Shown here: positions 17,493-20,406 of the stretch, one piece after another
Layout: every line of letters begins with the position of its first letter
How positions within the stretch are numbered: the stretch's first letter is position 1
The notes under the pieces: generated by a model
Databases searched by the model: none
What the model saw: only the letters and a program-made list of their open reading frames with translations
What the model was told of the DNA's origin: nothing
Made by a program: the position numbers and the translations under genes
Assembly (NCBI GenBank): GCA_030018135.1
Contig: JASEGJ010000019.1
Coordinates: 1 to 20,406 of the forward strand
Length of the DNA: 20,406 nucleotides
Direction: 5' to 3'
From: Candidatus Hodarchaeaceae archaeon
GTDB taxonomy: Archaea; Hadarchaeota; Hadarchaeia; Hadarchaeales; Hadarchaeaceae

Positions 17493-17596
17493 GGGCCCGT
17501 AGTCTAGCCTGGACAATGTTCAACATCCGGATAGGACACCAGCCTGCGGTCGTTGGCAGCGAGCTGGCGACCCGGGTTCGAATCCCGGCGGGCCCG
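17493..17596 (+). tRNA. tRNA-Arg (GCG) with two introns
   Basis: The acceptor arms GGGCCCG and CGGGCCC (17589-17595) pair fully, with discriminator G17596 and no encoded CCA. The T arm is CCGGG-TTCGAAT-CCCGG. The anticodon stem CCAGC (17539-17543) pairs with GCTGG (17563-17567); the loop CTGCGG + A gives anticodon GCG after removing 12 bases (17550-17561) at the canonical 37/38 site. The D stem GTCT (17502-17505) pairs with GGAC only if an extra 18 bases in the D-loop are also removed, giving the standard loop AGCCTGGATA. The 18-base intron lies within 17511-17531; its exact ends are ambiguous because GGA is repeated at both borders. The mature length is then 74, a normal value. Splicing is inferred, not shown. 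Confidence 0.85.
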
Positions 17597-19321: not shown

Positions 19322-19633
19322 GATGGTACCCAGCCACCATTGAGTTCATGTTAAATAAAATTTTTGATTACTTTCGTTGGGCCCAAGTTACGGCTGAAAA
19401 GATGATGTGCACACAGCGCATGCGCAATGAAAGGCTTTGCAATGGATTTTCCAATTCAAAAGCAGCGGGAATTGGAGGGTCCCGAGTTGGGTCAGGGATG
19501 AGCCACATCCGTTAAAAGAATTCATCGGGACGTTAGCTGATGGCGAGGGAACCCATACCCTACGCACGTAGGCTTCTCGCACCCAAAGAAAACAAAAAGA
19601 CTTAAACGATTCTTTACCCTTTGTCGTAATGGT
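19322..19633. other. Spacer: DHS and tRNA promoters, possible small RNA
   Basis: The left end holds the minus-strand AT-rich promoter of the synthase gene (19350-19363). The right end holds ACTTAAACG (about 19598-19606), a TATA 28-36 bases before the tRNA. Between them no gene is supported, but two hairpins are visible: TCCAATTC/GAATTGGA (19450-19476) and CCTACG/CGTAGG near 19560. There is also a box-C-like GATGATG (about 19401-19407) and a CTGATGG (about 19538). A structured RNA is possible but not demonstrated. Confidence 0.35.
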
Positions 19634-19817
19634 GCGGAGGTAACTCAGCCATTTGGCTCGGCGAAAAGGCCTCCAAACTGAAATGGGAGTTCGGGGTGAA
19701 CCCGACCCAAAAGTGTCGGACCTCGTCGAGAAAAATCGCGAGGGACAAAACTGAAGTTCCCAGCAATGGGACGCGGGCATCCGAATGTCACGGGTTCAAA
19801 TCCCGTCCTCCGCACCA
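19634..19817 (+). tRNA. tRNA with two introns, isotype tentatively Phe (GAA)
   Basis: The acceptor GCGGAGG (19634-19640) pairs fully with CCTCCGC (19807-19813), followed by discriminator A and an encoded CCA. The T arm is ACGGG-TTCAAAT-CCCGT. The 184-base span is far longer than a tRNA. The D stem ACTC (19643-19646) finds its partner GAGT only at 19687-19690; removing about 33 bases (19651-19683) leaves the usual loop AGCCTGG. The removed piece folds as TTTGG...GGC-GAAAAG-GCC...CCAAA. The anticodon stem TCGGG (19691-19695) pairs with TCCGA (19780-19784, one G-T). The loop GTGAA gives anticodon GAA, with about 77 bases removed at 37/38; that intron contains TCCCA-GCAA-TGGGA and CCTCG...CGAGG hairpins. 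Oddities: no spare base 26, and C rather than G at 37. The isotype is therefore uncertain; Trp (CCA at 19672-19675) was considered but lacks matching stems. Confidence 0.7.
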
Positions 19818-19889: not shown

Positions 19890-20406
19890 ATGCAAGCGGT
19901 TGAGCTAGCAAGGCTAGTTGTCAACAAGACCATCGTTGAAGAGCGCAGAGGAAGGGGCAGGAAAGGCTACGGCCGCCTTCCGGCGGCGAGGCTTTTAGTC
20001 TACGCGCAGCTGAAGGGCATCCACAAGGACGAGCCGCTCGAGAAGCACTTGAGGAAAAACCGAGGCGTTGCGAAAGCCCTCGGCCTGAAAGGCATTCCCG
20101 ATCGGACGACGATAGGTAGGTGGAGAAGGAGGCTGGAGCCCGTCGTCCGGGAGGCCGTAGAGAAGCTGGCGGGTCTCATCGCGACGCTCGCGCCGACGGA
20201 GCTCCTGGTCGTCGACTCGACGCCGCTCGAGGACCGGAGAGACCCTGAGGCGAGGGTTGGCTTCTACTCGCGAGGACCGTTCAAGGGCTTTAAGGTGCAC
20301 GTTTCGGTGGATCAGCTCGGATTGCCCCGAAAAGCGCTGGTAACGCCCGGAAACAGGCACGATTCGCCCCTTCTGCCAGAGTTGATCTGCGAACAGGAGG
20401 CAAAGG
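19890..20406 (+). CDS. IS5-type DDE transposase, partial at window edge
   Basis: An open frame of 172 codons starts at ATG 19890-19892 and continues past the right edge. The basic N-terminal region (ERRGRGRKGYGRLPAARLLV) and the helical part (HLRKNRGVAKALGLKGIPDR then TTIGRWRRRLEP) are typical of IS5/IS4-like N-domains. The DDE core begins LLVVDSTPLEDRRDPEARVG, with the first catalytic Asp at D109, followed by FKGFKVHVSVD and LVTPGNRHDSPLLPEL, with the second Asp at D158. The final Glu is outside the window. The element lies immediately downstream of a tRNA gene, a common landing site for mobile DNA. The frame is intact as far as seen, so the copy may be active. Confidence 0.85.
   Translation, partial: MQAVELARLVVNKTIVEERRGRGRKGYGRLPAARLLVYAQLKGIHKDEPLEKHLRKNRGVAKALGLKGIPDRTTIGRWRRRLEPVVREAVEKLAGLIATLAPTELLVVDSTPLEDRRDPEARVGFYSRGPFKGFKVHVSVDQLGLPRKALVTPGNRHDSPLLPELICEQEAK

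Follow-up and report, generated by a model that had tools for sequence, protein, structure and literature searches.

Positions 19634-19817 of the window (the whole 20,406-nucleotide stretch analysed here, from a Candidatus Hodarchaeaceae archaeon) almost certainly hold the sole detectable, and presumably essential, tRNA-Phe(GAA) gene of this member of the Hadarchaeota, divided by four archaeal introns of the bulge-helix-bulge (BHB) type. Five exons of 17, 6, 8, 7 and 36 nt are separated by introns of 33, 22, 30 and 22 nt. Four introns probably represent a record for one archaeal tRNA gene, one above the published three.

Anatomy of the gene

The elements of the gene and its putative promoter are as follows.

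19601-19606, + strand: TATA-like element CTTAAA, presumed promoter, about 30 nt upstream of the tRNA (read from the sequence)
19634-19650, + strand: exon 1, tRNA positions 1-17, GCGGAGGTAACTCAGCC (orthologue comparison, intron finder)
19651-19683, + strand: intron 1, 33 nt, at 17/17a in the D-loop; 4-bp H helix TCAG/CTGA, 5-bp inner helix TTTGG/CCAAA
19684-19689, + strand: exon 2, 6-nt micro-exon TGGGAG, positions 17a-22 (orthologue comparison)
19690-19711, + strand: intron 2, 22 nt, at 22/23 in the D-stem; H helix TGGG/CCCA, inner helix TCGGG/CCCGA
19712-19719, + strand: exon 3, 8 nt, AGTGTCGG, positions 23-30 (orthologue comparison)
19720-19749, + strand: intron 3, 30 nt, at 30/31 in the anticodon stem; H helix TGTC/GACA, inner helix CCTCG/CGAGG
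19750-19756, + strand: exon 4, 7 nt, ACTGAAG, positions 31-37 (cloverleaf fit, intron finder)
19757-19778, + strand: intron 4, 22 nt, at the canonical site 37/38, relaxed motif (the G37-A38 join is that of orthologues without intron 4)
19779-19817, + strand: exon 5, positions 38-73, plus the encoded CCA at 19815-19817 (read from the sequence)

The original prediction, made from the letters alone, had recognised a tRNA-like gene with perfect acceptor and T arms in this interval, and this is borne out, down to an encoded CCA. The insert of about 33 bases that it placed in the D-loop is exactly 33 bases long (19651-19683). The prediction was right that a real tRNA gene with more than one intron is present and wrong to count two: its single anticodon intron of about 77 bases is actually three introns (19690-19711, 19720-19749 and 19757-19778) around exons 3 and 4. 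A transposase gene (DUF772 and DDE_Tnp_1) occupies window positions 19890-20406; its start lies about 70 bases beyond the 3′ end of the tRNA, and it continues past the end of the window.

Tests of the four-intron reading

Two approaches lead to the same exons. A relative (G007, locus L027) has an intronless tRNA-Phe, GCGGAGGTAGCTCAGCCTGGGAGAGCGTCGGACTGAAGATCCGAATGTCGGGGGTTCAAATCCCCCCCTCCGC, and overlaying it on the window reveals five exons and four introns; the comparison of orthologues that had been suggested as a check recovers the same four sites. The mature sequence differs from this orthologue at six positions, which make up the compensated pairs 10/25, 49/65 and 50/64. The second approach was an intron finder, a beam search given only the BHB rule and a general cloverleaf, unaided by orthologues. 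Run with a widened beam, and with anticodon-loop weights (T33, purine 37) raised on general tRNA rules after a first, more strongly pruned search, it returned exactly four introns with the maximum score of 38/38. The best score among 300 mononucleotide shuffles of the interior was 34, the shuffles retaining the acceptor and T arm and the mononucleotide null being weaker than a dinucleotide one. The predicted mature tRNA scores 36/36 on the first scale, all scored stem pairs and conserved bases being present. It forms a complete cloverleaf with anticodon GAA (19753-19755), U33 and a purine, the normal G37, at position 37. ARAGORN calls this sequence tRNA-Phe(gaa).

An alternative with only two introns, a D-loop intron of 33 nt and an anticodon-arm intron of 77 nt, has one attraction: exon 5 contains TCCGA, a possible pairing partner for the TCGGG stem of intron 2, and the loop so enclosed holds GAA. 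This GAA is a decoy, lying in the loop of the intron 2 inner helix (hairpin TCGGG-GTGAA-CCCGA). The alternative ignores exons 3 and 4, which are continuous in orthologues lacking introns 2, 3 or 4, yields an abnormal position 37, and is passed over by the finder in favour of four introns; we consider it highly improbable. The anticodon stem originally proposed drew on the same hairpin and was a misparse. Its assignment to Phe was right by accident, via the decoy, while the oddness noted for the isotype, and likewise for position 37, disappears once the true anticodon is used. Poorer still are the prospects of a parse with three introns, among them a 52-nt anticodon intron, and anticodon TCG (Arg). 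It was the top solution in the first, more strongly pruned search, but it places C at position 33, ranks under the four-intron solution with the wider beam and contradicts the Phe orthologues.

Neither ARAGORN nor Rfam (at gathering score) makes a call for the tRNA-Phe gene in the raw window DNA, which speaks for a decayed pseudo-tRNA. Against such decay, all exon positions are intact, the differences from relatives are compensatory, the splice motifs covary (see below), no other tRNA-Phe was found and independent genomes share the structure; the idea is barely credible. The search for a second tRNA-Phe covered 31 parsed tRNA genes and a DNA-level search for the mature sequence, in an assembly of 45 contigs that is about 93% complete, which leaves a small chance of another copy. 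The original prediction had named two outcomes against itself, another tRNA-Phe and a different folding with one intron, and neither was encountered.

Distribution of the introns among orthologues

Four introns are present in five genomes: that of the window (G000), G008 and G013, all parsed by the unaided finder, and G009 and G011, read by hand because the finder mis-parsed their long intron 4 and the divergent acceptor end of G011. An assembly artefact or metagenome-bin chimera, for which the 45 contigs and the mosaic look of the gene (see below) might speak, has a negligible chance of explaining a four-intron tRNA-Phe that recurs in four other assemblies. G015 has three introns (1-3); the finder set its intron 1 in an adjacent register, and the site 17/17a was assigned by eye. 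Twelve genomes have two: introns 1 and 2 in G002 and G025, introns 3 and 4 in the other ten (intron 4 of G003 being assigned by reading). The gene is uninterrupted in G007, G012, G023, G026 and the phylum outgroup, G027.

Introns 1 and 2 co-occur in all eight genomes that have either. A DNA pattern for this pair, scanned across named genomes, matched seven records whose titles read Hadarchaeum, Hadesarchaea or 'Hodarchaeaceae', and also one Nitrospinaceae bin, perhaps by chance. Lineage-wide use of the D-loop site, as originally suggested, holds for tRNA-Phe, with introns 1 and 2 spread over eight genomes and two families. The accompanying remark that the D-loop break lies near that of a tRNA-Arg is true only loosely: the Arg intron, at 20a/21, adjoins intron 2 (22/23) and not intron 1, whose site (17/17a) is interrupted in no other tRNA parsed in the genome.

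Splice motifs and RNA folding

The BHB motif calls for a 4-bp central helix (H) formed by the exon with the 3′ end of the intron, a 3-nt 5′ bulge and an inner helix within the intron. Introns 1-3 fit it, each with four of four H pairs and an inner helix of 5-6 bp. Their outer helices, the exon-exon pairing that closes the 3′ bulge of a strict (symmetric) motif, comprise only 0-2 bp here, so that the motifs are relaxed. Despite sequence change, 96-97% of the splice-motif pairs are conserved, and more than one type of pair occurs where positions vary: 70/72 for intron 1 (same site, 8 genomes), 69/72 for intron 2 (8 genomes) and 114/117 for intron 3 (13 genomes tabulated). Exon and intron also covary, since in G008, G009 and G013 the exon G15 is changed to A15 together with a C to T change in the intron. 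Intron 4 departs from this pattern: it has three H pairs out of four and, in the standard register, lacks a regular inner helix. The anticodon stem serves as its outer helix, with 1 bp before and 5 bp after removal of the other introns. In the minimum free energy structure computed for the unspliced RNA at 37°C, introns 1 and 2 lie side by side, each with its H helix and inner helix complete; the inner helix of intron 3 is stable and its H helix has a low computed probability.

The start of intron 4, of TTCCCA type (19757-19763), is complementary to TGGGAG of the D-loop (19684-19689), making a pairing between the two possible. Introns of this type are also found in orthologues G005, G006, G014 and others; in G006 a D-loop TTGGGAG is matched by TTCCCAA in the intron, with one compensatory change. 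A box C/D guide, for which the original prediction had suggested a test, would call for a long intron with C, D, C′ and D′ boxes. Nothing supports one here, as the introns measure 22-33 nt and no box C was seen by reading.

Proposed splicing route and origin of the four introns

These features suggest an order for transcription, cleavage and splicing. One transcript would cover all five exons. The endonuclease would cut three hairpins: those of intron 1 and intron 2, which are adjacent and share the 6-nt exon 2, and that of intron 3. Because intron 3 interrupts the anticodon stem, that is, the outer helix of intron 4, it should leave before intron 4; its removal would let the anticodon stem form and complete the splice site at 37/38. 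RtcB, which is present in the genome, would then ligate the five exons into a standard tRNA-Phe.

As the phylum outgroup (G027) is intronless, the introns were presumably gained within the order. The 5′ flank, ACTTAA included, aligns to loci with two introns in G021, G014 and G018, which belong to one genus, and does so far better than shuffled controls; the 3′ flank aligns to that of G021. Intron 4 is closest to its counterparts in G014 and G010; introns 1-3 are closest to those of G015 and G011, from another genus. Judged by these similarities, which involve introns of 22-33 nt and flanks of 60 nt, the allele appears to be a mosaic, with flanks and intron 4 resembling alleles that carry introns 3 and 4, and introns 1-3 resembling alleles of the other genus. 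Recombination bringing introns 1-3 into a two-intron allele would give four introns; repeated intron loss is the alternative. The tree of the splicing endonuclease (EndA) lacks the resolution needed to place gains and losses in sequence inside the family or to choose between recombination and loss. Deoxyhypusine synthase, considered as a species tree, was dropped on account of its paralogues.

The splicing endonuclease subunit

The genome encodes one endonuclease subunit with PF01974 and PF02778 matches, 179 amino acids long from the first ATG (open frame of 189). Every other hadarchaeal genome with a match likewise shows a single subunit of about 180 residues, with one PF01974 and one PF02778 match. 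A lone subunit of this size with N and C domains, and with no second subunit found, is characteristic of the alpha4 type. Hadarchaeal EndA aligns almost end to end with the alpha4 enzyme of Methanocaldococcus jannaschii (PDB 1a79), including the region of the catalytic Y, H and K. It differs in that a conserved GKPLSGG(K/R)LQL stretch replaces GNVEGNFLSL of the M. jannaschii protein and, unlike the latter, it is encoded in a genome that holds many relaxed-motif introns. Broad-specificity endonucleases of the CSL/ASL kind have a lineage-specific loop, with a conserved lysine, inserted close to the active site. The hadarchaeal subunit lacks the Crenarchaea-specific loop, no insert of the Aeropyrum pernix EndA type being found in the alignments, and has the conserved GKPLSGG(K/R) stretch at this location.

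Only (alpha-beta)2 and epsilon2 enzymes are reported to remove relaxed-motif introns efficiently, and the size class of the hadarchaeal subunit is reported to act on strict motifs (PMC6379350). With introns 1-3 relaxed and a lone alpha-type EndA, either the hadarchaeal enzyme breaks this rule or a partner was missed. If the former, the broader specificity perhaps comes from the conserved GKPLSGG(K/R)LQL stretch. We tentatively suggest that the Hadarchaeota may combine the most interrupted tRNA gene described, an essential single-copy gene with four introns, with removal of relaxed introns by a one-subunit, loop-less endonuclease of alpha type.

Other tRNA genes of the genome

Of the 31 parsed tRNA genes of the window's genome, tRNA-Phe alone has four introns, and it is likewise the only such gene among 21 parsed in G008. 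Sites 20a-24 of the D-arm are an intron hot spot in many isotypes of the window's genome (Asp, Gly, Thr, Val, Lys, Leu, Arg). Several others (e.g., His, Tyr, Asn, Cys) are missing from the parsed set; introns may conceal them, or they may fall in parts that were not assembled. The tRNA-Arg(GCG) gene at window positions 17493-17596 has its D-arm intron at 20a/21 and probably also a short intron near 37/38 in the anticodon arm, left in by the finder.

Two tRNA-Gln genes, TTG and CTG (G000:C1:16573 and G000:C1:20805; loci L172 and L173, from position 1501), parse with three introns each, including one in the T-loop that hides them from T-arm searches. Between them lies a tRNA-Gln-like 3′ part (G000:C1:19178; L073, position ~1500) with loop CTTTGGA, T arm and acceptor CGGGGCT. 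No 5′ part is found nearby, and the element could be a remnant, an integration scar or one half of a split tRNA. Further 3′ tRNA fragments (L098, G000:C14:2367; L099, G000:C16:7029; position ~1500 in each) lie ~0.8-1.1 kb from intact tRNA-Arg(TCT) and tRNA-Gly(GCC) genes and resemble leftovers of elements that integrate into tRNA genes.

Discussion

The published maximum for archaeal tRNA genes, stated or implied, is three introns (PMC4390854, PMC8450103, PMC6379350). Three-intron examples come from Pyrobaculum, namely tRNA-Glu of P. calidifontis and tRNA-Pro of P. islandicum (PMC4390854), where some introns need ordered removal (PMC8450103). The gene described here resembles these in having several small BHB introns, some at non-canonical sites and some with a predicted order of removal. 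It differs in carrying four introns against the stated maximum of three, in belonging to the Hadarchaeota rather than the Thermoproteales and in that only one EndA subunit, of alpha type, was found. Outside the Thermoproteales, multi-intron tRNA genes with non-canonical sites also occur in the Asgard Atabeyarchaeia and Freyarchaeia, where 228 tRNA introns were counted in three genomes in 2024, the main text giving no per-gene maximum (PMC11291895). A literature search by title and abstract found no archaeal tRNA with four introns; most subscription papers, GtRNAdb and the Asgard supplement fell outside its scope.

Provided that such a supplement or database holds no earlier case, the highest intron count known for one tRNA gene rises from three to four. 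Standard tRNA finders can overlook an essential tRNA gene in hadarchaeal genomes. Relatives with 0, 2, 3 or 4 introns at fixed sites form a natural series for the study of gain, loss and splicing order, and the hadarchaeal case allows the basis of broad specificity in splicing endonucleases to be tested directly.
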